Below are positions 8,467-63,263 of a stretch of DNA of 64,000 nt, one piece after another. The stretch's first letter is position 1. Each line of letters opens with the position of its first letter. The DNA is from Hysterangium stoloniferum. Its lineage: Eukaryota; Basidiomycota; Agaricomycetes; Hysterangiales; Hysterangiaceae. The DNA lies in assembly GCA_015178975.1 (NCBI GenBank), contig WHVD01000165.1:1-64000 (forward strand), in the 5' to 3' direction. The notes under the pieces are model-generated. The model was given only the letters and a program-made list of their open reading frames with translations, had not been told where the DNA came from and ran no database searches. A program made the translations under genes and the position numbers.

Positions 8467-8887
8467 CTATATTCATGTACTTAGAATCCAGTTTCAATCT
8501 CGAACTAGTTTTCCCCCGAACAAGTTTGATCCTTGAACAGTCTCTAGTCCTCTTGTCTGTCAGCACACTCGATTCCCGGAACTCCCACAGGAACTCCAGA
8601 ATCTATATATCCTTGTATGCATTCTGTCAGCTCGAAATATGGACACCCGAATGAGTGTACGAGGGCACAGCCTATAAGCTGAAGCCAAGTCCATCTCAGT
8701 CGTTCACCATATCTTTCTGGTAATTATTCTGATATCACCGTTCCTTGTACTAATAATCCCCGGAACTTTCCCAGGACCTATTAGCTGGGGACTCCGTGGG
8801 ACTATTCCTGGAAGCAAGTGTGTGTTCGGAATAGTTACCAGAAACCTCCGTGGGACTATCTGTGGAGTTTTGTTTGGGAACTTAACA
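8467..8887 (+). repeat. Family I LTR, 3' part
   Basis: Matches the reverse complement of the complete family I LTR at 60369-61406 from CTATATTCATGTAC to the terminal CTTAACA. Contains the shared U5 hairpin module at 8661-8692. The 5' part is displaced by the family A insertion and lies outside the window. Confidence 0.75.
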
Positions 8888-9047
8888 GATGTCATAGATA
8901 TCATTACTAACGGGATACACTGAGAAAAGCACATGTTAGATGGCAATTGCAAGATTGACAGGACATATATATACCAGGTTGCTGAATCATTGGAAGCTAG
9001 CATTAAAGCAGCTGGACAGAGCCTTGTGGTGAAGTCATCTGTGGCAG

Positions 9048-9868
9048 TGTTACGACCCGGACAAATCCCGCCGGACTCCGGGCACTAACTCGTACGCCCC
9101 CACGCGCTACAAGCACCAATCGTCTGTTTATAGGATTTCCCGCCCGGACTCCGTTACGTCAAGACTCGTTACGTTCGACCTCATTAAGACACATATCAGT
9201 CACCGGACTTCCCCCGGACCCCGTCTCTGTCTATGTCCGTCTTCGTCCCACGCATCAGTCACCGGACCCGCTTAGAATCCCGTCACCGCTCTAATCGAGC
9301 CCCGTTCCCGTCTTAGTCAAATGACCTGTCACGATTTAGGACTCCGCTCCCGCTCCGTTTCCCGTTATGGGTTATGCTTTGTCACGATTCGGACTCCGCT
9401 CCGTTCCGTCCCGTTCCTAACACCAATTTGGTGTTTACTATTCCCGTTTTATGTTTTGCTCGTCTCGTCTCATTATTACTGGATTCGGTATGTCATGCAT
9501 TCCACGGTCTATATAAACTGGCAGATGTTGTACATACAATCCAGTCAGAAAATTAGCTTAGATTTCCCCCAGTAATCTAATACATTTTCCTCTCTAAAAA
9601 CCCTACTCTCATCAGACCGCTCGCACTAGTCGGAGCCCACGGGCTCCGGCGCATCTATCTCTCTCGACTATCTCGATTCACGACTCTCGACTCACAACCT
9701 ACGACTCACGACCCACGAACCCCCGCCCGGACTCCCCGGGATTCCCGTCCGCCTGTCTGAAATTGGACAACACGATCTAGCGAGGGCGCAGCCTATAAGC
9801 TGAAGCCAAGTCCTACCGGATATCCCGCGGGTTTCTCCGGAAACCCGGCCTGAGTGTGTATCCTAACA
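9048..9868 (+). repeat. Solo LTR, family A, TSD GGCAG
   Basis: Begins TGTTACGACCC, ends GTATCCTAACA, flanked by GGCAG at 9043-9047 and 9869-9873. TATA box TCTATATAAACTGG near 9504 gives plus orientation. U5 hairpin module at 9782-9813. CpG sites are largely retained, suggesting a young copy. Confidence 0.9.
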
Positions 9869-10180
9869 GGCAGCCACCAAGCCCACAGCAAAAGCTGCCA
9901 CACCAACTCCAAAGCCAGCCACCCCTTCTGCTGGTCCATGTGCTCCCTCATCCACAGCACCAAATGCAGTGACAGTGAGCCTCATCAAGCATTTCGAGGG
10001 GTTTGTCTCGAAGCCTGCCCCAGACCCAATCAGCTTGCCCACTGATTTGGACACCTTTGCAAGACAAGAAATTGTGGAGAGGTTCCATTAAGTTTTCCAT
10101 TGTCACAGGCTTTGGCCAGCTCTCTCCTCAATACTGATGCAAAAACTTTCATTAATTGTCTCTATGGCATGATCAAGAAC

Positions 10181-10493
10181 TGTTAGAATATGCTAAGGTT
10201 ACGATTAGTACTATCTCATATCTCATCTTGTGATTGCATATGGTTTCCGGTTCATGGACTTCCATGATAGCATAAATAGTTTAGTGTTAAAGTTCACACA
10301 CAGATCAGTGCACAGACCAATGCACAGACCATGTATGCTAGTATATAGTTAGTTCAGATGAGGAGTAGATCCCTCATCTGAAAGCCTAGTTATATCACCA
10401 GCTTATATCTACCTGCTCTACTCTAAGCTACTTTTGTACCTATGTAGAGAGTCCTCGCATTGTGGTCCCCTAGGCTATCAGATTATTTTAACA
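10181..10493. repeat. Solo LTR, family H, TSD AGAAC
   Basis: 313 bp, TGTTAGAATATG to ATTTTAACA, flanked by AGAAC at 10176-10180 and 10494-10498. A second copy in the opposite orientation is at 54835-55175. It interrupts the lysozyme remnant. Transcriptional direction is not clear. Confidence 0.85.
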
Positions 10494-10792
10494 AGAACTT
10501 GGTGAAGCTGAACAACAATCAATTCAGTGCTTTGACCTCATTTGCATTTAACCTCAGTTGTGGTGCAGTGCAGTCATCCATCATGCTGAAACATTTGAAT
10601 TCTGGGGAAAGTCCTGATACTGTTATGGTGCAAGAGATGCCCATGTTTAATTATGTGGGGGGAAAGTCACCTACAGAGAGTCAAGATGAATTGAGGACCT
10701 TTAACAGAATCAATATATAGATAGATGCAGTGTTAAACATGAGGATATAAATACTCACCAGCAGTAGTGCAGAGTACCTTGTGTCTCAAGAG

Positions 10793-12495
10793 TGTTAAGA
10801 CATGTGCAGGGCTTAGCAGAGAGTTTCTGGAGAAACCCATGGATATTCCAGTAGGACTTGGCTTCAGCTTATAGGCTGCACCCTCGTGAGATTGTGGCAT
10901 CCAATTTCAAATGGGCAGACAGGAAACCTGGGGAGTCTGGGTGTAGTGGATAGGTCGAAAGATCAGTCAGGGAGCCCATGGGTGTTAGGGCAACACTAAC
11001 AAAGCTACCAAACACAAGATAAAACACAGAAATATGAAGTGAAGAGGGGATAGCTCAATGACAGGGGAGATCACACTTGTTTTAGTGAAATTCCTAAGAG
11101 ATTGAAACTAAAGACTAGCTATGTACATGCCCCCTATTTATACTATTTATTATTTATGAGAAATTAAGAGAAAGTGCATATATGCACTGCTATTGAGCCA
11201 ACAGCACTTCTGTGTCTAACTGGCACCTCAGTGTTTGTGTTGGCACTGACTTTGTCTGCAGTGGCGGGGTGCATATCTGTGCACAGGGATTACTTTAGAC
11301 ACACTGTGTGTCAACCATGGACAGCGGCGGCGGCCTTATGATGACAGCAGTTGTGGCAACCTTGTGATGGCAATGGCTGTGACAGCCTTGCGATGACAAT
11401 GGATATGGTGACCTCGCAATGACAACAGCTACAGCTGCAACATCCTTGCAACAACAATGGATACAGTGACCTCGCAATGACAATGGCTGTGACAGCCTTG
11501 TGATGATGGTGGATATGGCTGTGCAATGATGGCGACAGTGGCAGTAACTTTGCAATGGTGGTGCAGCCTTGAGTCGATCACTATTGTCTGGCTGTGCCGA
11601 TGCTGCATCACTATATCACTGCGTGGCCATGTTCGGGATGTAGGCGATGCTGTTGTCATTATGTCGGTGCAATTGCTTGGCCATGCCACCATGCAGAATG
11701 TGCAAATTGTGACTATGCTGCATGCCCATGCATTGTGACGGCGTGACTACTTTCAATGGCAGTGGCAGTGGCATGATTACGTAATCATTCTCGCACCGTG
11801 CCTGCACTGCTATATGCACATGTAAATAAAATAAAATAAAATAAACCAAAATCAAAAAATAAATGGCAAATATATAATCTATATATTGCCCTGACAATGG
11901 GCTCTGACAAGGATGAGGGGTTGGGTGGTGATGGGTCAGAGGTCAAGTGATAGATAGGCTGGAGCCCACAGGCTCTGACAAGGTAAATAGTGGTGTGTTT
12001 CAAAGAGAGGAATAGAGCAGAAATTATACTGAGATTGCTGGGAAGATCTAAGCTGATTTTCTGACTGGATTGTATGTACAACATCTGCCAGACTATATAG
12101 ACTGTGGAATGCATGTTATACCAAATCCAGTAATAATGAGATCCAAACAAGTAATCATGAAACAAGATAAGTAAACACCAAATTAGGTGTTAGGAATGGA
12201 ATGGAGGCAGAGTCCAAAACATGACAGGTCATTAGACCATACTGGGAATGGGGCTCAGTTAGAGAGCTGTCGGGTTATCTGGGTGGAGCCTGGTGACTGG
12301 TGTGTGGAACAGGGTTGGACATAGACAGGCTTTGATGTGTGTGGGTCTGGTGATGTGTGAGACACAAAAGGGTTGGGGATGGACAGGTTTGATGTCCAGG
12401 TTCCAGCAGGTATTCCGGTTAACTGATAACTGCATATAGGGTGCAGGTGCATATATGGTAGTAACCAGAGTCTGGCGGATCTTCCAGTTGTAACA
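10793..12495 (-). repeat. Solo LTR, family B, interrupted by a family G LTR, TSD AAGAG
   Basis: TGTTAAGACATG at the left end, CAGTTGTAACA at the right, flanked by AAGAG at 10788-10792 and 12496-12500. About 790 bp of it is family B sequence; the rest is the family G LTR at 10983-11896 with its duplication. Minus orientation by the TATA region (near 12095-12105) and by the hairpin module at 10854-10885. CpG-poor compared with family A. Confidence 0.88.
10983..11896 (-). repeat. Solo LTR, family G, inside the family B LTR, TSD ATGGG
   Basis: TGTTAGGGCAAC to TTGCCCTGACA, flanked by ATGGG at 10978-10982 and 11897-11901. Minus-strand TATAAATAG near 11135 suggests minus orientation. Its U3 would contain an imperfect minisatellite (about 11320-11760) of units such as GCAATGACAATGG and GTGACAGCCTTG. 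Short open frames there are repeat artefacts. Confidence 0.85.
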
Positions 12496-12500
12496 AAGAG

Positions 12501-13015: not shown

Positions 13016-13838
13016 TGTTACAACCAGAATTCCTGCTGGACTCCAGGCACTAACTTATATGCACCTGCACCCTATATGCACTAATTGTCAGTTTACCAGA
13101 ATTCCTGCCAGACTCTGTACATCAGACTTGTCCATGCTCGACTTTCATTACTTCATGTATCAGTCACCGGAATACCTGCCGGACTCCATCCCTATCTATC
13201 TCTGACCCTGTTCCACGCATCAGTCACCGGACCCCGCTCAGAAAACCCGTCAGCCCTCTAACTGAGCCCCATTCCCATTGTAGTCAAATGACCTGTCATG
13301 ATTCGGACTCCACTCCCACTCTGTTCCTGTTATGGTTTTATTACCTGTCACAATTCGGACTCTGCTCCATTCCATCCCATTCCTAACACCAAGTTTGGTG
13401 TTTATTTATCTCATTTCATGTTTGCTAGTTTAGTTTTCATTATTACTGGATTTGGTATGTTATTCATTCCACAGTCTATATAGTCTGGCAGATGTTGTAC
13501 ATGCAATCCAGTCAGAAAATCAGCTTAGATTCCCCCCAGTAATCTTAGTATATTTTCCACTCTAAATTCCTCTTTGAAACACACCGCTCTTACTCGTTGG
13601 AGCCCACAGGCTCCAACCCATCTATCACTTGATCCCTGACTTATCTATCCTGACTCCCTGACCTCTCGACCCATGACTGCTTGACCCATGAACCCTGCCC
13701 GGACTCCCCAGGATTCCCGTCCACCCATTTGAAATTGGACAACACGATCTCAAGAGGGCACAGCCTATAAGCTGAAGCCAAGTCCTACTGGCTTTCCTGT
13801 GGGTTTCTCTGGAAACCCTCCGTGTATGCACCTTAACA
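13016..13838 (+). repeat. Family B 5' LTR of element B
   Basis: 823 bp, TGTTACAACC to CACCTTAACA. TATA region TCTATATAGTCTGG near 13478. Hairpin module at 13754-13785. GATAC lies immediately upstream. Confidence 0.85.
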
Positions 13839-13863
13839 GTATTTTCTGACTAAGACTCGCAGA

Positions 13864-14121
13864 TTGTTCAATATGCCAAGAAGAAAAGCACACACAGGCA
13901 TCATTACCTGGACAGTCGAATCTTCATTCCCCACTAACTTTGTATACCAGCCAGATGCCATGGAAGAAACCCATATTGAAGAAGTCCCAGAAAACCCAGA
14001 CAAATCTGAGCATGAGGACGAGTCCATGGCCCCTGACAAGGGAAAGGGTGTCGAAAATTCCCCATCTAACGATCGACTGCCACTTTTGGACCCTGCCTCT
14101 GAGTATTTAGCAATCAAATAA
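13864..14121 (+). other. Open frame of 85 codons next to the 5' LTR, unrecognised
   Basis: Starts MPRRKAHTGIITW and is acidic and Glu/Pro-rich in its second half. It lies 25 bp inside element B's 5' LTR. It could be a leftover of a Gag N-terminus or a leader frame. No family recognised. Confidence 0.3.
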
Positions 14122-14269
14122 GTGAAAGGAGTATGGTGGGTCCGTGGGCGTTCTTAGGCGCTGCAGGCCATCTTTGTGAGGGCGCGGAGCGCCCGAACCT
14201 GGAGGTGTGGGAGAGTGTGACTAATATTGACGCCCAAAGCTCCTTATTACTCAGCATGGGAGCAAATGC

Positions 14270-14640
14270 GGAGGCTTTTTGCCATTCGCGGGAGCATTTC
14301 TGCGTTCGCGGGAGTATTTTTAGTGCCACAGGAGTATTTGTGACTAACGCGGAAGTATTTATACAAGCACGGGGGTATTTTATGACGTGTGGAGGTATTT
14401 TTACATGCGCGGGAGTATTATATCAGGTGCGCAGAGGTATTTTGCAATGCCGTGGGAGTATTGTTATACTGCATCCACTGTGCACCCATCCACTGCGCAC
14501 CTGCTCCCATCCACCGTGCTCCCATCCACCTGCACCCATCCACCGTGCACCCATCAACCCGCTCCCATCCACCGCGTACCCATCAACCCGCTCCCATCCA
14601 CTGCGCACCCACTCCCATTCACGGTGCACCCCCTCTCTCT
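14270..14640. repeat. Two short minisatellites in the leader of element B
   Basis: 14270-14460: about nine loose copies of GCGGGAGTATTT spaced 20-30 bp. 14465-14640: about a dozen copies of CACCCATCCAC/GCTCCCATCCACCG-type units of roughly 15 bp. Confidence 0.75.
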
Positions 14641-16270
14641 TTCCTCCAGGTGATGCGTGTACTCTTTCCTTCTCCCACCGTCCTGCGCTAATCCCCCTCC
14701 TCTCTCTTTCCTCCAGCGAGTGTGTGTACTGTTTCCTTCTCTCTCCGTCCTCCTCTGATTGACCTCTTCTCTCTTTTGTCCAGCCGGTGCGTGTATCATT
14801 TCCTCTTTCTTTGTCCTCTGACCATCCTCCTCTCTTTCCTCCAGGTGCGTGTACCGTTTCCTTCTCTCTCCATCCTCTCATCGCGGCCCTCTCTCTTTCC
14901 TCCAGCTGGTGCATCTACCATTTCCTTCTTCCTCTGTCCTGCGCTGATTTGCCTCCTCTCTCTTTCCTCTGGCCAGTGCGCGTTCCATTTCCCTCTCCCT
15001 CTGTCCTCTTCTGATTGGCCCCTTCTCTTTCCTCCAGGTGCGTGTACCGTTTCCTTCTCTCTCCGTCCTCCTCTCATCAGGACCCTCTCTCTTTCCTCCA
15101 GCCGGTGTGCATTCCATTTCCCTCTCTCTCTGACCTCTTCTGATTGGCCCCTTCTCTTTCCTCCAGGTGCATGTACCGTTTCTTCTCTCTCCGTCCTCCT
15201 CTCATCGGGACCCTCTCTCTTTCCTCCAGCCGGTGCACATTCCATTTCCCTCTCTCTCTGTCCTCTTCTGATCGGCCCCCTCTCTTTCCTCCATCTGGTG
15301 CGTGTACTGCTCCTTCTCCCTTTGTCCTCCTCTCTCTTTCCTCCAGCCGGTGCGTGTACTTCTCCTTCTCCCTCTGTCCTCCTCTCTCTTTCCTCCAGCC
15401 GGTGCATGTACCATTTCTTCCTCCCTTTGTCCTCTCTCTTTCCTCCAGGAGGTGTGTATACCGTTTCTTCCTCCCTTCGTCCTCTCTCTTTCCTCCAGCC
15501 GGTGTGTGTACTGTTTCTTTCTCCCTTTGTCATCCTCTGATTAGCCTCCTCTCTTTCCTCCGGCCGGTGGGTGTACTGTTTCTTTCTCCCTTTGTCCTCC
15601 TCTGATCGGCCTCCTCTCTCTTTCCTCCAGGAGGTGTGTGTACCATTTCCTTCTCTCTTCGTCCTCCTCTGATTGGCCTCCTCTCTCTTTCCTCCAGCTG
15701 GTGCATGTACCGTTTCCTTCTCCCTTCGTCCTCTCTCTTTCCTCCCAGAGGTGTGTGTACCGTTTCCTTCTCTCTTCTTCCTCTGATCGGTCTCCTCTCT
15801 CTTTCCTCCAGCCACTGCATGTACTGTTTCCTTCTCCCTTCATCCTCCTCTCTCTCTTTTCTCCAGCGAGTGCGTGTACTATTTCCTCCTCTCTCCATCC
15901 TGCTCTGATCGGCCCTCTCTCTTTCCTTCAGCAAGTGTGTGTACTATTTCCTTCTCTCTCCATCCTGCTCTGATCGGCCCTCTCTCTTCCCTCCAGGTGG
16001 TTTGTGCACCCTTTCCTTCTCTTTTCGTCCTGCCCTGATTGGCCTCCATTCTCTTTCCTCCAGCCAGTGTGTGTTCCTCTGATTGGCCTCCTCTCTTTCC
16101 TGCAGTGTGTGTCTACCATTTCCTTCTTCCACCATCCTCCTACCAGCCCTCTCTTTCTTCCAGGTGGTGTGTGTACCCTTTCTTCAGTGAGTGTGTACTA
16201 TTTCCTTCTCTCTTTGTCCAGCTGCTGTGTGTACTGTTTCCTTCTTCCTCCGTCCCCCTCTGATCGGCCT
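14640..16270. repeat. Pyrimidine-rich minisatellite, units of about 55-70 bp, over 20 copies
   Basis: Each unit reads approximately CTCTCTCTTTCCTCCAG, then GTGCGTGTACTGTTTCC, then TTCTCCCTCCGTCCTCC and TCTGATCGGCC. The plus strand is strongly C/T-rich. Long open frames on both strands (for example 14722-15540 plus and 14796-15815 minus) arise because many units are multiples of 3 and lack stops; I do not regard them as genes. Confidence 0.9.
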
Positions 16271-16434
16271 CAATAAAATCAGAATAATTCAAATAAAATA
16301 TAATAAATGAATATAAAATGTTTAAAAACAAAATAAATCGAAATGAAAAACAAATCAAAATAAAATACATTAAATCAAAATAAATAAATTGAGTGACCAC
16401 AGTAATTACTTGCAGTTGAGAGTCAATTTAACCA

Positions 16435-16975
16435 CTCTTTCCATTTGTAACCATTGTTTCCTTTTGTTTTTGTAACTGTTGTTTCCTTTTGTAACCATTG
16501 TCTCCTTTGTAACCATTGTTTCCTTTGTAACCTTTGTCTCCTTTTGTAACCGTTGTTTCCTGTGTAACTGTTGTTTCCTTTTGTAACCATTGTCTCCTTT
16601 GTAACTGTTGTTTCCTTTGTAACTGTTGATTCCTTTTGTAACTGTTGGTTCCTTTTGTAACTGTTGATTCCTTTTGTAACTGTTGATTCCTTTGTAACCG
16701 TTGATTGCTTTGTAACCGTTGATTGCTTTGTAACCGTTGATTTCTTTTGTAACTGTTGATTTCTTTTGTAACCGTTGATTTCTTTTGTAACCGTTGATTT
16801 CTTTTGTAACCTTTGATTTCTTTTGTAACCTTTGATTTCTTTTGTAACCTTTGATTTCTTTTGTAACCTTTGATTTCTTTTGTAATCTTTGATTTCTTTT
16901 GTAACCATTGATTTCTTTGTAACCTTTGTAACCTTCCTTTGTAACCGGTGTTTTCTATGTAACCGTTGTTTCCTT
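16435..16975. repeat. Minisatellite of 16-21 bp units (TTGTAACCGTTGATTTCTT type)
   Basis: About 27 tandem units alternating TTTGTAACC(A/G)TTG with TTTCCTT or ATTTCTT. Preceded at 16270-16430 by an A-rich stretch of AATAAAAT-type words. Minus-strand frames here are repeat artefacts. Confidence 0.88.
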
Positions 16976-16984
16976 TATAACACT

Positions 16985-17838
16985 TTCCATCTAACGTGAC
17001 TTTCCGTTCTGACACAACTTTCTGTTCTAACACGACTTTCCGTTCTAAATGACTTTCCGTTCTAACATGATTTTCCATTCCAATGTGATTTTCCGTTCTA
17101 ATGTGATTTTCCATTCTAATGTGATTTTCTGTTCTAACGCGATTTTCCGTTCTAACACAACTTTCCATTCTAAATGACTTTCCGTTCTAATGTGACTTTC
17201 TGTTTTAAATGACTTTCCATTCTAACGCGACTTTCCATTCTAAATGACTTTCCATTCTAATGTGACTTTCCATTTTAAATGACTTTCCGTTCTAACGCAA
17301 CTTTCCATTCTAAATGACTTTCCGTTCTAATGTGACTTTCCATTCTAACGCAACTTTCCATTCTAACACAACTTTCCATTCTAACACAACTTTCCATTCT
17401 AACGCAACTTTCCATTCTAAATGACTTTCCATTCTAACGTGACTTTCCATTCTAATGTGACTTTCCATTCTAATGTGACTTTCCGTTCTAACATGACTTT
17501 CCTTTATAACTAACACTTTCATTCCCTGAACACTTTCTTTCCATTCTAACGTGACTTTCCATTCTAACGTGACTTTCCATTCTAACGTGACTTTCCATTC
17601 TAACATGACTTTCCTTTATAACTAACACTTTCATTCCCTGAACACTTTCCATCTAACGCGACTTTCCGTTCTAAAGTGACTTTCCGTTCTAAAGTGACTT
17701 TCCGTTCTAAAGTGACTTTCCGTTCTAAAGTGACTTTCCGTTCTAAAGTGACTTTCCGTTCTAAAGTGACTTTCCGTTCTAAAGTGACTTTCCGTTCTAA
17801 AGTGACTTTCCGTTCTAAAGTGACTTTCCGTTCTAACA
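16985..17838. repeat. Minisatellite of 16-18 bp units (GACTTTCCGTTCTAA type)
   Basis: About 50 units of (GTGACTTTCCATTCTAAC). The right end, 17650-17838, is ten near-perfect copies of TTTCCGTTCTAAAGTGAC, so the array was homogenised from that end. A 110-bp block containing TTATAACTAACACTTTC appears twice (near 17505 and 17610), a higher-order duplication. Confidence 0.9.
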
Positions 17839-17885
17839 GCTTCCCTTTTAGAACAATGGGCCTCAGAAATACTTAAGAGTCATGG

Positions 17886-18000
17886 ATGCGGGGGGGTTTG
17901 GGGGGCGAAGCCCCAACAAGCCAGAGCCCACAGCGAAGTTGTGGGGCAGGTCACGAAGTGACCACCCCGCAGCGTAGCAAGGGTTCCCAGGCTTGTCACT
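17886..18000 (+). other. Cluster of GCGAAG-type hairpins just upstream of gag
   Basis: Three successive inverted repeats: GGGGC-GAA-GCCCC, CCCACA-loop-TGTGGG with GCGAAG in the loop, and GGTCAC-GAA-GTGACC, the last framed by TGGGGC and ACCCCGC. They lie between the minisatellites and the gag frame of element B. Confidence 0.6.
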
Positions 18001-18002
18001 TT

Positions 18003-20905
18003 AGAAAGGTTGATGAATCATATGCTCGGAGAAGGCAAAAAGAAGGATCCGGAACCTCCATGGTCAAAAGTCACTGCTCCGCAACCTTTCATGGGTTCCA
18101 ACCCAAACAAACTTTCCACTTTTCTCATGCAATGTCACTTCAATTTCCACAATCGATCCACTGCATTCTCCATGGACTCCCGAAAAGTCAACTTCGCACT
18201 TTCATACTTGTCAGGATCCACGTTGAAATGGTTTGAACTGGCTTTTAGCAGACTTTCCAAGGAAGAGCCACTTTGGCTTGAAGATTGGGATGCTTTTGTT
18301 GAGGAGCTTGAAACCAACTTTGGCCCATATGACCCGACCAGAGAAACCAAGAACAGTCTCACTAATCTTTGTATGAAGGACACACAGCACATCATGGACT
18401 ATATCATCCAATTCAATAATCTTGCAGCTCCTTGTCAGTGGGCGATCCCGCTCTCCACCACCAATTCTATGCCGGTCTGCCATCCCACCTTAAAGACGAA
18501 GTCTCAAAAGGAGAAGATGACAAGCCAAAAACACTGTCCCATATGCACCTTAAGGCTCAAAACACAGATGCACATTATTGGGAATGTTGTGCGGAAGTTG
18601 CCCATGAGACCTCTACAGACAAAGTGAACAGGTCCACAGCCAATAAAACCAACAACAACAACTTGTCAACCAGCAATGAAAACTCCACATAATCTGACAA
18701 TAAGAACAATAAAAAGTCTTCTAACAACAACAACAACAACAACAACAACAAAGGTCAACAGTCTGGCAAGCAAACCAAAAACCCCAACCTCACAGGCAAG
18801 CTTGGACCTGATGGCAAATTGACCCCACAAGAAAGACAATGTTGTATAGACAATAACCTCTGTCTCTTGTGTGGAAAACCTGGTTATTGAGTCCTGGAAT
18901 GTCCACTGGAAAAAGCAAACTCTGCAAAAGGTCAAACAGCCAAGACTTCCTCCACAAAAACTCTGTCGAAGAACAAACCAGCTTCCGACTCGAAAAAAGA
19001 GTGAGCAACCCTGTGGACTCTGCACAGATTGGGGGTTGCATTGCCTCTCTGTGCATTCAAGAGTTTACCCATCTCAACGCATCCACTCTTTCACATTCTG
19101 ATTCATTTTTCATTAAACTTATGTCTAATATGATTCTGAAATTTGTTTTTTCAGCCCTCATAGATTCCAGCTCGACTCATTGTTTTTTAGATACAAAATT
19201 CACACAAAATAATCTGTTGTCAACTTATCCAATTAATCCTATCAGCCTCCAACTTTTCAATGGCACAAGCAATTTGGTTGTCACCCAAGCTTGTGATTTA
19301 TCCATCTGTTTCCCATGTGGAACATCCCAGTTGGTCACTTTCTACATGACCCAGCTAGACTCAAGTTGCTCGGTTGTCCTAGGACACAACTGGCTTACCT
19401 GGTACAATCTGTTGATTGACTGGGTAGCTAACAGTATAACTTTCTGGACACCCATGGCTTCCGAGAAAACTGTACCTGACACAGCCTCCACGGCACCTGC
19501 AGTCTTGAGGACTCCTGTGATCCCTACGGCACCCATGGCTTCCCCAGAACCCATGGCACCTCCATCTATTTCTCTGATTAATGCTGCAGCTTTTATTAGG
19601 GCTACAAAAATGGATGGGTCCCAGGCATTCACTATCAATTTAAAAATTGATGAAGCAACTGGTCATTTCTCAACTCCAGTATCCGAATCTGAGCAAACCG
19701 CTGATCTAGAAGGCATCCTGGAGAAATATCATGACTTCATGGATGTTTTTAGTAAGTGAAAAGCTGACTGGCTTCCACCCCACAGAGAGTACAGCTTAAA
19801 AATTGACCTCAAAGAAGGTGCCCAGCCACCCCTTGGACATACTGTATCTACCCACTTTCCTTCACGGAACTTTCCGCAATCTGCAATTTCCTGGATAAAC
19901 ATTTCTCCATAGGCTTTATCAGACCTTCTAAGTCTCCTTTTGGAGCACCTGTTCTGTTTGTCAAGAAAAAGGATGGATCCCTTAGACTATGTGTTGATTT
20001 CAGAGGCCTCAATGCTGTTACAAAAAAGGATAAGTATCCACTTCCACTTATATCTGACCTCCTCGATGCTCCACAGAATACCTGGATTTACACCAACATA
20101 GACCTTAAACAGCCTATCATTTGGTCTGGATCTGTGAGGAGTATGCTTTTACCACAGTTTCATTGTGGTAAAACACTCCTTTTATTTTATTTATATTTTA
20201 CACATTCTATTCATATTTATCTATCTTTTATATTCTTCGAATATTCCATCATTTCATTAGTTCGAAGCATTGTGTATACTTGTGGGTGCACTCAGCACCA
20301 ATTAGAACTCAGACACACTTTTACCCAAGAACCACCACTCGTAAGACATAAACTAGGTCTACTACGAGCTGTGATCAGGGTAACGTGTCAGCTACTACAT
20401 AGGTAGCAATATCTGAACTATCTAACACTTCAGGCCTCGAACTATAGCAGTCGAGGCCTCCACTTGAATCATCCTTCTCAAATCATCCTTCCTCCCATTC
20501 TACTCATTTCTTCGTAGATAGAATGGTCAGAACTTATACCACTCTTCACAGGATCCCTGCAGGAGACGAATGGAAAACCACTTTCAGAACCCATTATGGG
20601 GCCTTTGAGTGGTTGGTGATGCCTTTTGGACTCACCAATGCTCCATCTGTTTTTCAGCATTTTATCAACAACATTTTCTCCGACATGCTTGATGTATTTG
20701 TCATTGTTTACTTGGACAACATTCTTATCTACTCCAAGAATCCTGTGGAACACAACAAACAAGTCTGTGAAGTTCTCCAGAGACTCAGACAACATGGTTT
20801 ATTCACAAATGGTAAAAAATGTACTTTTGACACAGACTCCATGGAATACCTGGGCTTCATAATGGGACCCAATGGACTCTGCATGGACAAAACTAAAGTA
20901 CAAGT
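18003..20905 (+). mobile_element. Gag-protease-RT region of element B (Ty3/gypsy), worn
   Basis: 18010-18630 resembles a retrotransposon Gag capsid domain (LKWFELAF, a region around WEDWDAF-like WLEDWDAFVEEL). A zinc-knuckle region follows near 18840-18900 (CLLCGKPGY). 19080-19450 is a retropepsin region (ALIDSSSTHCF ... VVLGHNWL). 19930-20900 is reverse transcriptase ([32 protein letters not shown]). It is interrupted by the F LTR at 20133-20550 and stops at the E LTR. Several breaks are present; it is a fossil. Confidence 0.82.
20133..20550 (+). repeat. Solo LTR, family F, inside the RT region, TSD GGATC
   Basis: 418 bp, TGTGAGGAGTATGC to CACTCTTCACA, flanked by GGATC at 20128-20132 and 20551-20555. 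A second copy is at 22483-23277. Confidence 0.85.
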
Positions 20906-21400
20906 TGTCACGAACATACAAACACAAATTTTGATAATATTCAATTTAACATTTCTTCAACATTTCTTTGACATTCCTTCGACATTCCGACTCAACTTCT
21001 GACTCAACTTCCAACTCAACTATTCTTCAACAATATCTTCAACAATCTCAAATATCTTTGACTTGTCTCAGTTTGATGTCATTGATAATTTCACTTTGAT
21101 ATCATATTATCATCATAGATAAATGATATATAGTATATAAGGACAATGATAGGAACAAAGGAAGTCAGTCAGAAAACCTGTACTATATTATATTATTTAC
21201 TGTATTACATGTATAATCATCGAACTTTTCCGAGTCCTTCTTTGACTTATTTATTCGTGAGCCTCTGTGTCCTATCTTTGCCTCACACTTTATCAACAGG
21301 ACAAATTAATACTTTGTCGAATGAGACATCTTTATTCAATATTCTTAAATATTCTTTGATTGTTTATTCAACTTTATTGAGTAAAATTCGATTCATGACA
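20906..21400 (+). repeat. Solo LTR, family E, TSD CAAGT
   Basis: 495 bp, TGTCACGAACATAC to ATTCATGACA, flanked by CAAGT at 20901-20905 and 21401-21405. TATA-like GTATATAAGGACAATG near 21135 gives plus orientation. Inserted in the RT-to-RNase H part of element B. Confidence 0.85.
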
Positions 21401-21418
21401 CAAGTCATCAAAGATTGG

Positions 21419-21984
21419 TGTTAAGTGCCGTGTCGGGAACTTATTCCGGAACTATCGGAAAGTCACCGGGAAGTCGGAAACTCGTGGATAGGGTCAGGAC
21501 GTCGGCTTCAGCTTATGTGCTGCGCCTCTACGCAAACGCTCAATGTCCTTAATTTCGGAAGTAAAACTTACAATGGAAGATATGGATATTCAGAGTTCCA
21601 AAGAGTTCCGAATATCGAGCGTACAGAAAGACGGGAGGAGGAATAAGAAACTAAGTCGATATCAGATCTAAGGTAAAGTACAAATTCACGGAAACTAATA
21701 TAAGTCTACTCGTTATTGTACTACAAACTAAGACCATAATAAGATGGAAACGGAAGTGTTCTTAAAACGGAAATACAATAAGACATATTAGGGAGACAAT
21801 ATTCCGAAACGGGAATACAACAAACAAACGAGTGAATACTTGTCAATGGACAAATTACCAAATGCAGAACAAGGGAAGAATGCGGATGATACGGTAACTA
21901 TGATGTTCCGTAGTCGGGGATCGGAAGTCAGAAGTCGGAGATCAGAAATCGGATATTGAAAACATCCGGGAACGGGTCGTAACA
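21419..21984 (-). repeat. LTR, family D, no matching TSD
   Basis: 566 bp, TGTTAAGTGCCG to GGGTCGTAACA. It carries the U5 hairpin module at about 21497-21528 in minus sense. Left flank ATTGG and right flank GCGAC do not match, so a deletion or recombination followed insertion. It retains many CpGs, unlike its surroundings. Confidence 0.7.
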
Positions 21985-22482
21985 GCGACAGCCTGTCTGC
22001 CTACAGGACATCTACTATGAAGAACACCTCATGCCCTGGAAGGAGAACATCCCAGCCAGGAAGGCTCACAATATTGTGTATGCTGCTAAGTCCCATAGAC
22101 TAGCAGCACAGCAAGATCCTAATCCTGAGCCTTATACTACCTGGCTGCAGTGAAACATTATGAACCTCCTTCAGTGCTCATTTAAGGAGGAGGTGATTCT
22201 GATGGTGTCTAGGAGGCTATCGTGTGGCCTACTTGCTGTTTGAAGGATTGCAGGACCAGAGGAGTGCTCAATTAGGGACCAGAAGGAAAGAAATGGATCC
22301 TTTTTTTTTTCTCTCCACCCCTCCTTCTACATTCTTACTGCCTCTAGACCTACCAACCTCTCTTTGAGCACTGGGATCTTGGCACTTTGTAGTTTGGGGG
22401 TGCTCCACACAAGATGCCTGGGAAGCATTCCAGATACTTCCCAGTTCTTGGTATAGCACATCCCTTTGAACTGGGGGGGCAC
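21985..22482. other. Interior of element B, unassigned
   Basis: A short plus-strand open stretch near 22010-22150 (DIYYEEHLMPWKENIPARK region) looks coding but I do not recognise it. A T run at 22300-22311 and a G run at 22473-22479 follow. No further domain found. Confidence 0.4.
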
Positions 22483-23277
22483 TGTGAGGGATATGCCCTG
22501 GCCATGGTTTTATTAAAGTAAAATACTCCTTTTATTTTATTTATATTTTACATATTTCACTCATATTTTCCTATTCTTTACATTCTTCAAATAGTACACC
22601 ATTTCATTAGTTCAAAGTGCTGTGTATACTTGTGGGTGCACTCAGCACCAAATAGAGAGACACACTTTTTACCCAGAAACCACCACTCGTAAGACACTAA
22701 ACTAGGTCTACTACGAGTGGTGATTAGGGTAATGTGCCAGCTACTACATAAGTAGCATTATCTGAACTATCTGAGCTAACTAACATCTCAGGCTTTGAAC
22801 TCGTCATCTAGCTCTCTCTCCTCTCACTCTCTCTAATATCACACTGCAATAGTTGATATTCTTCATATACACTGGAGGCACCCAAGGTTTTTGAAGTTGG
22901 AGAGCCTTCTGAAAATTCTACTATTTGGCCAAATTTTCTGAGAATTCTTTGAACTGATAAATTGTTTGAAAATTTTAAGCTTTAGTAGGATTTTCCACTT
23001 TGAAAAAATCATATCTGAAAACCTTAAAAATTTGTATCAAGAAACTCTGACTATTGATGTTTCCTTAGATATCCCAATATACATATTTAAAGTTTTCAGA
23101 TATTATTTTCTACTTTGGAAAATCCTATTAAAACTTAAAATTTTCAAACAGTTTATCACTTTAAAGAATTAGTAGAAAATTTGGCCAAATATTAGGATTT
23201 TCAGAAGGCTCTCCAACTTCAAAAACCTTGGAGTGCCTCCAGTGATACAGAGCGGTCCGAATACACGACTCTTTCCA
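22483..23277 (+). repeat. LTR, family F, interrupted by a MITE
   Basis: Aligns with 20133-20550 on either side of the MITE at 22870-23244; without the MITE its length is close to 418 bp. Flanks GGCAC and CCCTG do not match. Confidence 0.7.
22870..23244. mobile_element. 375-bp MITE with about 70-bp terminal inverted repeats
   Basis: Starts CACTGGAGGCACCCAAGG and ends with the inverse (CCTTGGAGTGCCTCCAGTG). About 70 bp of inverted repeat, A+T-rich centre, no coding. Flanked by ATA on both sides, consistent with a 3-bp duplication (Harbinger-like) or a TA-type site. The same terminus starts the large foldback at 46331. Confidence 0.82.
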
Positions 23278-23421
23278 CCCTGTCACCCTATGTCTCTCTT
23301 TGCTTTTACAGGTTTCTGACATGTCTTTCAAGTCCTAAGTGGATTTTCCGTGGACTTTGATTTTTATGTTTTTTTCACACTTTACTTTTATTTCCAAAAA
23401 TTATGAAGTTTCATTATTTGT

Positions 23422-24330
23422 TCAATCTACATTTATGGGACTGTGCTTCTTCCCCACCTCAGCCATCTCCTCAGGGAGCTCTGCTATCTCTGTGGGAACC
23501 CTGTCCTCATCTGAACCAGCATCCTTGGAACTCCCAATCTGTAGCTCTTCATAGACATAGCTGCCATACTCCACCAGGAACTTCCAAAATTCCTTGCGGA
23601 GCCAGTAGAGTTCCCTAGCCACTACCACCTGCACCTTGTTGCTCTTCCTAAGCAACTCATTTTGGGCCTCTATGCCCTCAGCAATCCACCCTAGGACCTC
23701 ATCCAAACCCAAAATCCCGTCTGACCCGCTCACTTCCCATGCCATGGACCCTGTGGGCTGCTTGTGAATGAGCAAGCACCTCACTTTGAGGTGTGCACTG
23801 GAAGTAGCCCAGTCCCTGCCCAGACTTCTGATTGCAATCAGTGTTCCAGTCATTACAACCGGAACACCGTGGGTTGTTCCTCATTGGTAGGTGGACTGGA
23901 GCCACTTTCCTTGACTTCTGTTGATGTGGTTACCTTCCCGGAGTTCCCACAGACCCGAGGCTTACCTTTTGGGGGCTCTCCGGCTCCCCCTCAGACTCCA
24001 ACTCAACCTCTGCCACCTTGTGCTGAAAATGCCAAGTCAGTAAGTCGATATGGTGATTCAATGGGACTTACCTTTCCTGTGGCAACTGCGGCCCTATCCG
24101 CAGCTGCCCAGGCTTTCTCCACAGTGACCCATGCAGCCTCCTCCTCATCCTTCTTCCTCTGCTCCTCAGCCACTTTCTCCGTGGCCAGTGCTGCCTGGTA
24201 CTCCCTATCCAGCTGCTCTTCGGCCTCCTTGGCCTCTCTCTCCACCTCCTCTCATTGTTGATGCTGTTCCTCCCACTGTGCCAAGATTTGGGCAGTGGTG
24301 AGAGGTGCCCAATATGAATTGCCAATGGAG
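23422..24330 (-). other. Antisense accessory frames of element B (Cys-rich plus coiled coil), broken
   Basis: On the strand opposite gag-pol, between pol and the 3' LTR. The minus strand shows a highly charged Glu/Ala/Lys coiled-coil stretch (24003-24245), then a Cys-rich segment with NNPRCSGCN (near 23870) and a helical, acidic C-terminal part (23422-23700) with ELYWLRKEFWKFLVEYG. Cys-rich plus helical accessory proteins of this style occur in mushroom genomes near retroelements; the function is unknown. It is broken in a few places. Confidence 0.5.
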
Positions 24331-24578: not shown

Positions 24579-24581
24579 TAC

Positions 24582-25403
24582 TGTTACAACTGGAATTCCT
24601 GCCGGACTCTGGGCACTAACTTATATGCACCCACACCCTATACGCACCAACGTCAGTTTACCGGAATTCCCACTGGACTCCGTACATCAGACTTGTCCAT
24701 GCTCGACTTTTGTTACTTCATGTATCAGTCACCAGAATACCTGCCAGACTCCGTCCCTATCTATCTCTGACCCTGTCCCACGCATCAGTCACTGGACCCC
24801 ACTCGGAAAACCCGTCAGCCCTCTAACTGAGCCCTGTTCCCATTATAGTCAAATGACCTGTCACAATTTGGATTCCACTCCCACCCCATTCCCATTATGG
24901 TTTTATGACCTGTCACAATTCAGACTCCACTCTGTTCCATCCTGTTCCTAACACCAAGTTTGGTGTTTATTGATCTTGTTTCATGTTTGCTAATTTAGTT
25001 TTCATTATTACTGGATTTGGTATGTTATTCATTCCACAGTCTATATAGTCTGGCAGATGTTGTACATGCAATCCAGTCAGAAAATCAGCTTAGATTCCCC
25101 CCAGTAATCTTAGTATATTTTCCACTCTAAATTCCTCTTTGAAACACACCGCTGTTACTCGTTGGAGCCCACAGGCTCCAACCCATCTATCACTTGATCC
25201 CTGACTTATCTATCCTGACTCCCCAACCTCTCGACCCACAACCACTTGACCCATGAACCCCACCTGGACTCCCCAGGATTCCCATCCACCCATTTGAAAT
25301 TGGACAACACAATCTCGTGAGGGCACAGCCTATAAGCTGAAGCCAAGTCCTGCCAGCTTTCCCATGGGTTTTTCTGGAAACCCTCTGTGTATGCACCTTA
25401 ACA
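24582..25403 (+). repeat. Family B 3' LTR of element B
   Basis: 822 bp, TGTTACAACTGG to CACCTTAACA, followed by GATAC. It is very close to 13016-13838 in the TATA-to-U5 stretch; differences are mostly C/T and G/A. Hairpin module at 25319-25350. Confidence 0.85.
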
Positions 25404-53976: not shown

Positions 53977-54701
53977 TGTTACGACCGTGTTGCAACCCTA
54001 TCGGTCCCGAGGTTATCGCCACTTATCAACATTTTCAAGTCACCACTTTGGAAACCATCAGCCCCCAAAGCTGACGTATGTTTTCGCGATGATCAAACTC
54101 CGTTTACGCCCACATCAAAATAACTCATATTATCTGGTTAAACTTTTGATACGTCCCTTTTATTATGTTGATCCGTTCAATCCTATGTTTCACATATGTC
54201 TATCTATATTTGTAGTCCTTGAACTATTTCCGTTTATCGTAATTCCACTCTCGGTTATCATCGGCCTCCGAACTAATCATAAACTTCCCATTCCTAGTCA
54301 AGCTTATTGTTAATACCATTTTCTGCCCTTCTCCCCATTAGTATTTTCTAGACGCCTGTTACTTGTATATGAACCCGCTGTAGTTGTAGTTACTAGGCAA
54401 TCAGAATATCGACTCAGAATACCCTCATACATCTGTAACAGTCTCGTACTAAGAATCCCCCCTTCCGCCTTCATGTGCGCTTGCCCAGTCCCGGCCCTGA
54501 CCCCTTGGCCCGACGCTCAACTTGTCCTTTGGTCCCGATCGGTATCTCGCCGAAAGAAACTCCTTAGGATTAGTCTTCGCCCGTCCAAAATCTAAGGACA
54601 CCCTATGGATATTTGCAAGGGCGCAGCACATAAGCTGAAGCCAAGTCCTTCCGATCGGTCCCTGTTGGCCACCGACATTAGTCAGTTTTCAGTTCTTAAC
54701 A
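53977..54701 (+). repeat. Solo LTR, family C, TSD GGAGT
   Basis: 725 bp, TGTTACGACCGTG to AGTTCTTAACA, flanked by GGAGT at 53972-53976 and 54702-54706. Hairpin module at 54617-54648. Second copy at 61444-62164, inverse. Confidence 0.88.
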
Positions 54702-56033: not shown

Positions 56034-56835
56034 TGTTACGACCGAACAATCCTACCGGACTCCGGGCACTAACCCGTACACCCCCACACCCTACACGCAC
56101 CAATTGTCTGTTTATAGGATTTCCTGCCCAGACTCCATACATCAAGACTTGTTACATTTGACCTCATTACAACACATATCAGTCACCGGACTTCCCCTGG
56201 ACTCCGTCTCTGTCTCTGTCCGTCTTTGTCCCATGCATCTGTCACTGGACCCCGCTCAGAATCCCGTTATCGCTCTAACTGAGCCCCATTCCCATTTTAG
56301 TCAAATGACCTGTCACAATTTGGACTCCACTCCCGCTCCATTTCCCATTATGGGTTATGCTTTGTCATGATTAAGACTCCAATCCATTCCATCCCGTTCC
56401 TAACACCAATTTGGTGTTTACATTTCCCGTTTTATGTTTTGCTCATTTCGTTTCATTATTACTGGATTTGGTATGACATTCACTCCATGGTCTATTTAAA
56501 CTGGCAGATGTTGTACATACAATCCAGTCAGAAAATTAGCTTAGATTCCCCCCAGTAATCTAATCCATTTTCCACTCTAAACCCTTGCTTGATTCACATC
56601 CCTCGCACTAGTCAGAGCCCATGGGCTCTGGCACATCTATCTCTCTCACAACATCTCGACTCACAACCCACGACCTCTCGACCCATGACCCCTGCCCGGA
56701 CTCCCCGGGATTCCCGTCCACCCGTCTGAAATTGGACGACACGATCTAGTGAGGGCGCAGCCTATAAGCTGAAGCCAAGTCCTACCGGATATCCCACGGG
56801 TTTCTCCAGAGACCCACCTTGTACGTATCCTAACA
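56034..56835 (+). repeat. Solo LTR, family A, TSD CCTTC, CpG-depleted copy
   Basis: 802 bp, TGTTACGACCG to GTATCCTAACA, flanked by CCTTC at 56029-56033 and 56836-56840. Hairpin module at 56751-56782. Relative to 9048-9868, many CG dinucleotides are TG or CA. Confidence 0.9.
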
Positions 56836-59180: not shown

Positions 59181-59199
59181 TGATTGAATTTTACATTAT

Positions 59200-60300: not shown

Positions 60301-60368
60301 TGGAGGGTTGCTTGCAGTAGATATAAATCTACTTCCAATTTCATTTAGCTCAGATTGCAGGTTATTAT

Positions 60369-61406
60369 TGTTAAGTTCACAAATTCCGAGGAAGTCCTGT
60401 GGAGGTTTCCAGTAATTAATTCTGAACACTTCTTTCTTCCAGGGAAATGTCCCATGGAGTCCCTGGGTAATAGCTCCAGGGAGTTTCTGGGGATTAGTAG
60501 TTCAAGGGAGTGTGGTATCAGAATAATTACCAGAGAGTAACACTGAGATGGACTTGGCTTCAGCTTATGGGCTGCACCCTCATACACTCATTTGGGTGTC
60601 CATATTTTGAGCAGACAGAATGCATACAGGAAGATGTATATTCCGGAGTTCCCATGGGAGTTCCAGGAATTGAGCGTGCAGACAGACAAGAGGACTAGAG
60701 ACAAACTTGTTTGAGGCAAACTTATTTGAGGGAAAACTTGTTCGAGATTGAAACTGGATTCTAAGTACATGAATATAGCAGACTTATATAGACTGTGAAA
60801 TGTAATAATACCAAATCTGGTATTAATGAGAGGCAGAACCATTAAACATAAAACGAAACAAGTAAATACCAAACTAGGTATTAGGGATGGAATGGAATGG
60901 GAGTGGAGAATGAATCATGACAGGACATTTAACCATAACTGGAGCGGGGCTCAGTTAGAGGGGTTCTGGAAGTCCGGTCGGAGTCCGGTGACTTGGTGCA
61001 CAAGATAGTGTCAGGTATAGACAGGTTTGATGTGCAGGAGGTCCAGCAGAGTCTGGTGGGTTTTCTGATGACTGGTGTGTGAGATGCAGAGACAGATCAT
61101 AACAGGAGTGGGGTTCTATGCTCTGTTAGAGGGTTCTGGAAGTCCAGTTGGAGTCTGGTGACAGGTACATAAGACACAGAGTGTCGGATGTACATATATA
61201 GGGGGGAGTCTGGGGTCCAGTGGGTTTTCTGGGTATAGAGAGTTGGGTGCAGATAGGATGGAGTACATACAGAGAGTCAGGCATAAATGAGTTGACGTGC
61301 GGGCTCCAGTAGGAACTCCAGTTGTAACTATACAATATAGAGGGTTGGGAACATGTAGGATGGGGTCCGGGAGCCCGGAGGCTGGCGGGTTTTCTGGTTC
61401 CTGACA
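60369..61406 (-). repeat. Solo LTR, family I, TSD ATTAT
   Basis: 1038 bp, TGTTAAGTTCAC to TTCCTGACA, flanked by ATTAT at 60364-60368 and 61407-61411. Minus-strand TATA TCTATATAAGTC near 60785-60796. Hairpin module at 60550-60581. U3 contains an internal near-duplication (GGTTCTGGAAGTCC near 60962 and 61130). Confidence 0.88.
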
Positions 61407-61443
61407 ATTATCCTGTACTGTGAACCACCTGATGGGATATTTT

Positions 61444-62164
61444 TGTTAAGAACTGAAAACTGACTAATGTCGGTGGCTGACAGGGACTGATCAGAAGGAC
61501 TTGGCTTCAGCTTATGTGCTGCGCCCTCGCAAATGTCCGTAGGGTGTCCTTAGATTTTGGACAGGTGAAGACTAATCCTAAAGAGCTCCTTTCGGCGAGA
61601 TACCGATCGGGACCGAAGGACAGGTCGAGCGTCGGGCCAAGGGGTTGGGGCCGGGAGTGGGTGAGTGCATGCGAAGGCGGATGGGGGGGTTCTTAGTATG
61701 AGACTGTTACAGACATATGAGGGTATTCTGAGTTGATATTCTGATTGCCTAGTAACTACAACTACAGCGGGTTCATATACAAGTAACAGGCGTCTAGAAA
61801 ATACTAACGGGGAGAGCGGAAAATGGTATTAACAATAAGCTTGACTAGGAACGGGAAGTTTATGATTAGTTCGGAGGCCAATGATAACTGAGAGTGGGAT
61901 TACGATAAAAGGAAACAGTTCAAGGACTACAAATATAGATAGACATATGTGAAACATAAGATTGAACGGATCAACATAATAAAAGGGTCGTATCAAAAGT
62001 TTGACCAGACAATACGAGTTATTTTGACATGGGTGTAAACGGAGTTTGATCTTTGCGAAAACATATGTCAGCTTCAGGGCTGATGGTTTCCAAAATGGTG
62101 ACTTGAAAATGTTGATAAGTGGCGATAACCTCGGGACCGATAGGGTTGCGACACGGTCGTAACA
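61444..62164 (-). repeat. Solo LTR, family C, near-matching TSD
   Basis: 721 bp, TGTTAAGAACTG to CGGTCGTAACA. Flanks ATTTT (61439-61443) and ATTTC (62165-62169) differ by one base. Hairpin module at 61497-61528. Confidence 0.85.
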
Positions 62165-62444
62165 ATTTCAGCCTGTAAAGTGCCTTGATTGAGTCTTATC
62201 CATGATAGCCTGCTTTGCTCTGCCACTGCCCATGCATCTACAATGTATTGCTAAAGCAGAATTGTTGTTGCTTCACCAATTCTTTGAAAGAGTCAATAAG
62301 CATAATATTTTATCTGAGAGACTTTTGTCTGCTTTTTCTTCTTCTGTCTATCCTCTGTCACTTGTTCAACTTGTTCAGGTTCAAGTTCTTTAGTAATTCA
62401 CTGCACCTCATCCTGCTCCATAGCTGGCTGAGGAGGTGGCATAG

Positions 62445-63263
62445 TGTTAGGATACACACACAGGCCGGGTTTCCAGAGAAACCCGCGGGATATCCGGTAG
62501 GACTTGGCTTCAGCTTATAGGCTGCGCCCTCACTAGATCGTGTTGTCCAATTTCAAACGGACGGACGGGGATCCCGGGCAATCCGGGCGGGGTTTGTGGG
62601 TCGTAAGTCGTAAGTCGGGGGTCGTGGGTCGTGAGTCGAGTCGGTTGAGAGAGATAGATGCGCCAGAGCCCGTGGGCTCCGACTAGTGCGAGCGATGTGA
62701 ATCGAGTAAGGTTTTAGAGCGGAAAATATTATTAGATTACTGGGGGGAATCTAAGCTAATTTTCTGACTGGATTGTATGTACAACATCTGCCAGTTTATA
62801 TAGACCGTGGAATGCATGACATACCAAATCCAGTCATAACGAAGCGAAAACTAACAAAACATGAAATGGGAATAGTAAACACCAAATTGGTGTTAGGAAC
62901 GGAATGGAACGGAGCGGAGTCCGAATCGTGACAAAGCATAACCCATAACGGGAAACGGAGCGGGCGCAGAGTACAAATCGTGACAGGTCATTTGACTAAA
63001 ACGGGAACGGGGCTTGATTAGAGCAGTGATGGGATTCTAAGCGGGGACCGGTGACTGATGCGTGGGACGAAGACGGACATAGACAGAGACGGAGTCCGGG
63101 GGAAGTCCGGTGACTGATATGTATCGTAATGAGGTCGAACATAACGAGTCTTGACATAACGGAGTCCGGGCGGGAAATCCTATAAACAGACGATTGGTGC
63201 TTGTAGCGCATGGGGGCGTACGGGTTAGTGCCCGGAGTCCGGCGGGATTGTCCGGTCGTAACA
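62445..63263 (-). repeat. Solo LTR, family A, TSD CATAG
   Basis: 819 bp, TGTTAGGATACA to CGGTCGTAACA, flanked by CATAG at 62440-62444 and 63264-63268. Hairpin module at 62500-62531. CpG-rich, near-identical to the young copy at 9048-9868. Confidence 0.92.

Follow-up and report, generated by a model that had tools for sequence, protein, structure and literature searches.

Why does one short hairpin recur in the long terminal repeats (LTRs) of several retrotransposon families that otherwise differ in sequence? The question is raised by a 64,000-nucleotide (nt) stretch of the Hysterangium stoloniferum genome (assembly GCA_015178975.1, contig WHVD01000165.1, positions 1 to 64,000 of the forward strand), referred to here as the window, in which an initial annotation made from the sequence alone had listed eleven copies of a 32-bp block in five LTR families (A, B, C, D and I). 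This work finds that the block, hereafter the module, is a hairpin conserved across the sampled families between a self-primer and the primer-binding site (PBS), with some covariation. We propose that it acts in cis as a stem-loop of the 5' leader RNA in one clade of self-priming chromodomain retrotransposons of the Tf1/Sushi type, a reading that the sequences suggest with a probability of roughly 0.5. To our knowledge, packaging or initiation signals have been mapped in very few LTR retrotransposons, and for self-priming ones hardly beyond Tf1. The module copies of the window are listed below; unless indicated otherwise, they were detected both with a 32-mer search and with a covariance model.

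8661..8692, + strand, family A copy
9782..9813, + strand, family B copy
10854..10885, - strand, mosaic copy with B/C-like flanks and a family A self-primer
13754..13785, + strand, copy in a 5' LTR, B/C element with retained PBS
21497..21528, - strand, family I copy (GAGG...GCCGACGTCC), covariance model
25319..25350, + strand, B/C copy, probably in the 3' LTR of the element that starts before 13754
54617..54648, + strand, family D copy
56751..56782, + strand, family B copy
60550..60581, - strand, family A copy
61497..61528, - strand, family D copy
62500..62531, - strand, family B copy

All eleven blocks are present where the initial annotation had placed them. The covariance model (R1, trained on 34 module copies, four of these from the window) returned the same eleven places at 45.9 to 56.6 bits, and the only further window match up to an E-value of 1 reached just 12.2 bits (E 0.87), so the list is complete at the sensitivity of this model. 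The same search bears out that the block is absent from the other LTRs of the window. The RNA sense strand is as claimed, and the long pol frames point in the same direction. The 32-mer with at most three mismatches recovers ten of the eleven copies and gives no match in 100 shuffles; the remaining copy (21497, family I) is off by an indel, with GAGG for GAGGG and the tail GACGTCC.

The entire assembly (111 Mb, 554 contigs) contains 5,077 occurrences of a 32-nt pattern with four degenerate places (reversed control: 0) and 393 more of the family I form, which falls outside that pattern. Thousands of elements in this genome seem to share one small foldable RNA signal, as judged from these matches. 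When loci were picked solely by their LTR/PBS junction, 26 of the 27 carried the module. The curated RNA families of Rfam 15, such as the hammerhead ribozymes of retrozymes, gave no window match at their gathering scores. A pattern with 18 fixed bases occurred five times in a prokaryote collection (257 Gb, both strands), where a uniform estimate predicts about 7.5 matches, and twice in a viral collection. Two side observations concern the condition of the copies: the CpG of the module's GGCGC is frequently TpG or CpA in the loci examined, which resembles methylation-like or repeat-induced point mutation (RIP)-like decay of dead copies, and beyond GAAGCC the sequence jumps towards gag in locus L074 and to the LTR end in locus L083, both of which fit a deletion at the 3' edge of the module.

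The module consists of a GGC/CAGC stem paired with GCUG/GCC and an NNAUAA loop, to which most families add an outer GGAC/GUCC stem. The loop had been described as variable, which holds for two of its six letters; of the AUAA, the first A and the U never change, and each of the last two A is found in at least 90% of the 50 copies in alignment A1, which was used for the pairing counts. The 32-bp block is conserved, and the actual unit extends over about 70-95 nt, including an upstream GAAAT..GGACA block whose GGAC is able to pair with the GTCC that closes the module. The top blastn matches of B versus D and of D versus I have this length (about 70-95 nt) and run from GAAAT..GGACA or slightly earlier to a few nt past GTCC. 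As to its location towards the 3' end of the LTR, the distance from AUAAG to that end varies between families, from approximately 73-83 nt (B, C, D and X) through approximately 99 nt (I) to approximately 216 nt (A).

Conservation is higher in the module than around it. At fourfold-degenerate pol sites, B and D agree in 39% (260 sites) and 41% (175 sites), close to saturation; their modules are 97% identical over 32 nt. One copy each of families B, D, I, A and X was compared with 40 shuffles per pair. The module is 78-100% identical and beats the best shuffle in all ten family pairs, whereas the middle of the repeat region (R) and the unique 5' region (U5) exceed it in none (U5 ties at two decimals in two pairs), the 45 nt preceding the module in three (with ties in two) and the stretch from +13 to +60 in one. 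The comparison with the flanking U5 that the initial annotation had proposed thus favours the module, with U5 at shuffle level. Its counter-hypothesis, five close relatives with equal conservation across the whole U5, captures the kinship at protein level and fails on U5, which is not equally conserved.

The kinship is clear in pol. B pol is 69-83% identical to the D pieces and, over 537 residues, 80% identical to I; for D versus I pol the figure is 76% over 271 residues, and the Gag proteins of B and D are 52-67% identical. Because their pol pieces are 69-83% identical, B, D and I are, by sequence, one Ty3/gypsy chromovirus clade, and the families proposed as separate are a single lineage as far as pol was compared (B, D and I). 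The pol pieces of the B/C element in the window are 74-83% identical to B; the left-edge element of the window shares only 29-40% identity with the pol pieces of the families compared above, and no module match occurs before 8661. In the one element that was scanned (L031), pol comprises protease, reverse transcriptase (RT), RNase H, H2C2, rve, SH3_Tf2-1 and Chromo, which confirms the Ty3 order with an integrase chromodomain. The LTRs of full-length copies start with TGTTACGAC in several resolved cases and end with TAACA. Family A (L096) is different in content: its two LTRs are 4.44 kb apart, with no frame longer than 182 aa and only a 71-residue RT-like stretch in between, and the 4.44-kb spacing is seen at a second place on C41. 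Given the missing long frame, the RT scrap and the repeated spacing, family A appears to be non-autonomous. The 33-nt module stretch of this one family A copy is identical to that of B.

Some features of the B/C element in the window may be noted separately. It appears to stretch over about 12 kb (13510-25403). Its gag/pol pieces lie at 17998-20915, and it also contains a family I LTR (about 21419-21984), which indicates nested insertions. Between its gag-like pieces at 13892-14112 and 17998-19001 lies a minus-strand repetitive open frame (about 14600-16300) rich in REKETVHA..GGKREE repeats.

The main clue to the context of the module, self-priming, had escaped the initial annotation and comes from the sequence behind the LTR. 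The LTR end (CA) is followed by GT and an 11-nt PBS, the exact complement of which lies inside the LTR, upstream of the module. This exact complement was found in 16 of 19 junctions, where in each case none of 200 shuffled PBS sequences did as well; the misses are L033, L038 and L091, the last of which starts within the primer. Two more exact pairs come from one family I and one K junction. Six families possess six private 11-mers, namely AGTCAGAAAAT (B/C), AATCAGAATAT (D), AGATCTGATAT (I), GATCAGAATAT (X), AGTTTCAATCT (A) and AGTTCTAATAT (K), those of A, X, I and K being based on one junction each. Within the window, the exact family 11-mer is present upstream of the module in all eleven copies; these self-primers and the retained PBS are located as follows.

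8490..8500, + strand, self-primer, family A type
9543..9553, + strand, self-primer, B/C type, putative RNA 5' end
11099..11109, - strand, self-primer, family A type
13510..13520, + strand, self-primer, B/C type, fully complementary to the PBS (13841-13851)
13841..13851, + strand, PBS, 2 nt (GT) beyond the LTR end
21659..21669, - strand, self-primer, family I type
25075..25085, + strand, self-primer, B/C type
54399..54409, + strand, self-primer, D type
56526..56536, + strand, self-primer, B/C type
60745..60755, - strand, self-primer, family A type
61736..61746, - strand, self-primer, D type
62759..62769, - strand, self-primer, B/C type

Among the 27 junction-selected loci, 14 show the self-primer within the short stretch examined. 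The other 13 include two that cover just 189-212 nt, B/C loci most of which stop about at the expected primer, one locus with a single mismatch (L062), one that lacks the module as well (L057) and three D-like loci without primer (L056, L058 and L066).

In sequence, these self-primer/PBS pairs are the signature of Tf1/Sushi self-priming, and the Tf1 self-primer is likewise 11 nt long. According to passages from the literature, self-priming is a common trait of Tf1/Sushi elements, for which a pretzel of three duplexes has been described (PMC4600332, PMC6317226, PMC2864245, PMC10085805), and in Tf1 the 5' end of the RNA pairs with the PBS and thereby acts as the primer (PMC4600332, PMC10085805). 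Tf1 and Tf2 of Schizosaccharomyces pombe, Tj1 and Tf1/Sushi elements resemble the elements studied here in a self-primer at the RNA 5' end, which we infer here, and in a complementary PBS after the 5' LTR (PMC10085805, PMC4600332, PMC6317226); the Tf1/Sushi chromoviruses, as presented in these passages, also share the LTR ending in CA and the chromodomain integrase. Unlike the elements of H. stoloniferum, however, no conserved local hairpin between self-primer and PBS is described in the same passages. A tRNA or half-tRNA primer was rejected on the sole basis that the PBS lacks TGG, without a comparison to the tRNAs of this genome.

Since the self-primer lies upstream of it, the module is probably located inside the transcribed leader. 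If the RNA starts as in Tf1, the leader measures 264-412 nt from its 5' end to the end of the PBS in ten copies, and the module would start at nt 140 (I), 171 (A), 189 (X), 218-220 (D) or 238-244 (B/C) in seven copies, and at about nt 263 in the C_L048 leader. An unforced minimum-energy fold pairs self-primer and PBS in eight of ten leaders (10 or 11 of the 11 pairs), the exceptions being B_L035 and the window copy; the predicted probability of this pairing is 0.98 in X_L079. A second conserved motif directly follows each self-primer in the leaders of L031, L039, L093, L096, L079 and the K copy in L003 (examples: TAGCTTAG, CGACTCAG, TGACTTAG, CAACTTAG and CGAACTAG), possibly as part of a cleavage or folding signal.

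The same position bears on a reading at the DNA level, in which TATAAG is a TATA box, the block is bound as double-stranded DNA and the hairpin is a by-product of its dyad symmetry. TATAAG is indeed found in many A and B/C copies, the upstream GAAAT..GGACA could be a binding site, and a dyad could explain symmetric changes too; for D, I and K, however, most A1 rows have a loop that opens with ACATA. A TATA-type match was found within the 330 nt searched in five of the eleven window copies, one of them (8661) at 106 nt before the self-primer and the following four at 33-35 nt, far upstream of the module and better placed as TATA boxes; by the pattern used, the other six copies have no such match in these 330 nt.

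9510..9517, + strand, TATA box (TATATAAA), start 33 nt upstream of the self-primer
11135..11142, - strand, TATA box (TATAAATA), start 33 nt upstream of the self-primer
60783..60790, - strand, TATA box (TATATAAG), start 35 nt upstream of the self-primer
62795..62802, - strand, TATA box (TATATAAA), start 33 nt upstream of the self-primer

These boxes are compatible with an RNA start at the self-primer. A self-primer must be part of the RNA to prime, and it precedes the module in all eleven window copies; because of this finding, the TATA-box reading of the loop is ranked last among those considered, and we regard it as very improbable.

As a leader element, the module could act as follows. The RNA would start at the 11-nt self-primer, as in Tf1, and the self-primer would fold back onto the PBS right behind the 5' LTR, so that the module sits within the loop closed by this pairing. 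A protein supplied in trans, most likely the element's own Gag or RT/RNase H, would then read the hairpin, and this recognition would serve RNA packaging or the assembly of the self-priming complex. The formation of the stem in vivo, the RNA 5' end, the recognition in trans and the protein partner are all postulated here.

Whether the stem itself is maintained was assessed on A1, which contains 50 out of 136 module copies. Out of 167 module rows, 28 had been taken as reverse-strand matches of the near-palindrome and removed, leaving 139. A1 includes a random draw of 9 of the 61 B/C and 9 of the 38 D copies, and five of the 13 unassigned copies (two from L017, and L019, L028 and L040), some with broken pairs, were excluded by hand. 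Pairing across the seven stem positions is intact in 98.0% of the A1 cells, 11 cells are changed on both sides (shuffle mean 1.7) and the covariation score is 0.191 (shuffles 0.126), values that none of 500 shuffles reached; slid controls are at most 39% paired. With all 136 copies, pairing is 97.6% and 12 cells are doubly changed versus 1.0 in shuffles (each 0/500 as high), three pairs are changed on both sides (5/500 as high), one of which rests on the doubtful L040 match, and the seven further pair types are equalled by 317/500 shuffles. As related rows inflate such numbers, individual events matter more than shuffle counts. In family K, CAAC/GTTG replaces CAGC/GCTG, a change from G-C to A-U. 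A search for double changes at G10-C19 gave 427 matches, mostly from this one new family, and among the 100 listed, 97 were A-U, two T/T and one A/G. At A9-T20, the double-change search gave three matches, all U-A and in one repeat (M).

The outer stem differs between families: AAGGAC/GTCCTT in D, ATGGAC/GTCCAT in A, AGGAC/GTCCT in I, GGAC/GTCC in B/C and TGGAGC/GCTCCA in K. At least four contiguous pairs are possible in 59/61 B/C, 31/38 D, 4/5 I, 7/10 A and 8/9 K copies, counts that exclude the 13 unassigned copies and are biased towards this stem, as families were assigned with an upstream motif containing its 5' arm. When arms are swapped, the K 5' arm forms six pairs with the K 3' arm and two with any other. 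For whole leaders, the predicted probability of CAGC/GCTG is at least 0.95 in eight of ten.

A number of results weigh against a structured, functional leader hairpin. In A1, the two pairs with changes on both sides and the five further pair types are matched by 44/500 and 432/500 shuffles, respectively. The K change consists of two transitions (G to A, C to T) in a palindromic context, where symmetric deamination might help; the M copies are just three related ones, with an LTR location that is not demonstrated; only one of three matches in a double-change search at C8-G21 is paired; and we count only about four independent compensatory events. Outer arms exchanged among B/C, D, I and A can still form four to six pairs, so the specificity of the outer stem is partial. 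GGC/GCC has a predicted probability below 0.35 in seven of ten whole leaders, RNAalifold on A1 predicts the inner and not the outer stem, and the folding energy of the conserved island is ordinary (z -0.53 to -2.27, seven leaders). The second and third pretzel duplexes of Tf1, sought here between the PBS flanks and the leader, did not reach significance: the best helix is matched by 16-200 of 200 shuffles in 12 tests on six leaders. Finally, in the L099 lineage, whose pol is about 39% identical, a 10-nt self-primer (1/1,000 shuffles as good) goes with an LTR that lacks the module; the hairpin is therefore not needed for self-priming in general. The L099 element itself occupies 1649-7592 of its locus, with I-like module copies on both sides.

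The sceptical extreme is that no structural selection acts at all: the families are related, and the stretch has stayed alike through template switching or gene conversion among RNAs packaged together. The LTRs are mosaics: A has its U3 region in common with B and the sequence preceding the module in common with I, and in the 10854 copy the module region is B/C-like and the self-primer of the A type; the two non-significant A1 measures point the same way. Conversion does not, however, predict the paired changes in K, M and the outer stem. At G10-C19, matches in which only the left arm is changed number 125, as opposed to the 427 double changes, a ratio to be read knowing that the doubles are mostly one family and that right-arm-only changes were not searched for. 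We consider this explanation improbable. Of the compensatory changes anticipated in the initial annotation, the excess of paired and doubly changed cells over shuffles was borne out, and two of the five A1 measures were weak. Selection on structured RNA, which the annotation inferred and tentatively linked to 3' processing, packaging or strand transfer, is in our assessment supported by the conservation and some paired changes but not proven.

The main rival accepts an RNA signal of another kind, a poly(A) hairpin. Here, the module marks the end of R, and UAUAAG or CAUAAG in the loop is a weak poly(A) positioning signal that is ignored in the 5' copy and used in the 3' copy. This would suit the nearly invariant AUAA of the loop, the B/D similarity that stops within a few nt past GTCC, and the fact that, of all places in the five leaders scanned, the module alone has a listed hexamer throughout (TATAAG or CATAAG). 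On the other hand, the loop has no canonical AATAAA, a second CATAAG occurs elsewhere in the I and X leaders and AATACA in the B leader, and a module tail followed by A12 within 60 nt, as a sign of retrocopies, was found nowhere in the genome, which is a weak test. We judge this rival rather unlikely. The hairpin of the apparently non-autonomous family A deserves mention for both readings: its retention would indicate a signal working in trans, and fits packaging by Gag or an RT/RNase H complex, but a non-autonomous family would retain a poly(A) signal equally well.

Should the hairpin indeed be a leader signal recognized in trans, its distribution may define a compatibility group by a hitherto undescribed packaging or primer-complex signal, in which the pol-bearing B, D and I and at least one apparently non-autonomous family, A, share the hairpin and each keeps a private 11-nt primer/PBS lock; we put this forward tentatively, at a little short of even odds. 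Six families with different primer/PBS pairs and one hairpin make recognition of the primer and of the hairpin separable by comparison. A trans-recognised signal would also help to explain how a pol-less element of some 5 kb could spread, and the hairpin could serve as bait for its binding protein.

Known systems offer partial parallels. The retroviral U5-inverted-repeat (U5-IR) stem-loop has a Tf1 counterpart that, by the title of Lin and Levin 1998, is reportedly required for reverse transcription. They resemble the module as RNA structures of the leader close to the PBS, but the module forms its hairpin locally, some 73-216 nt ahead of the LTR end, and involves neither primer nor PBS. The poly(A) hairpin of human immunodeficiency virus type 1 (HIV-1), whose signal is passed over in the 5' copy and used in the 3' one, is comparable as a short leader hairpin with an A/U-rich, AUAA-bearing loop, but the module lacks AATAAA. 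Retroviruses with stem-loops in R are tRNA-primed. In some of them, residual conservation in long R regions has been tied to these stem-loops (PMC3601003), a likeness in conservation within R that involves no sequence comparison, those elements being retroviruses. For Ty1 and Ty3, 5' leader sequences are required in cis when the proteins come in trans; they need initiator methionine tRNA (tRNA-iMet), unlike the self-primed elements studied here, and the likeness considered is one of function (PMC4974528). By title or abstract, open-licence PMC papers yielded no description of such a hairpin in self-priming elements, and none of the three papers containing a module string deals with retrotransposons by title and abstract.

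Two further observations were made. Near the other end of the elements, GGGAYTTCGGC recurs 10-20 nt upstream of the 3' LTR in B, D and I (L031, L039 and L095). Long-range pairing of the module tail with this sequence before the polypurine tract was considered and rejected: it looks good in B and D and fails in I, where the tail is GACGTCC with an unchanged GGGATTTCGGC, so the two do not co-vary. Elsewhere in the window, a large array with 10-nt periodicity (46939-49100) comprises 157 overlapping copies of a 300-nt reference and has long inverted arms, 46939-47366 with 48673-49100.

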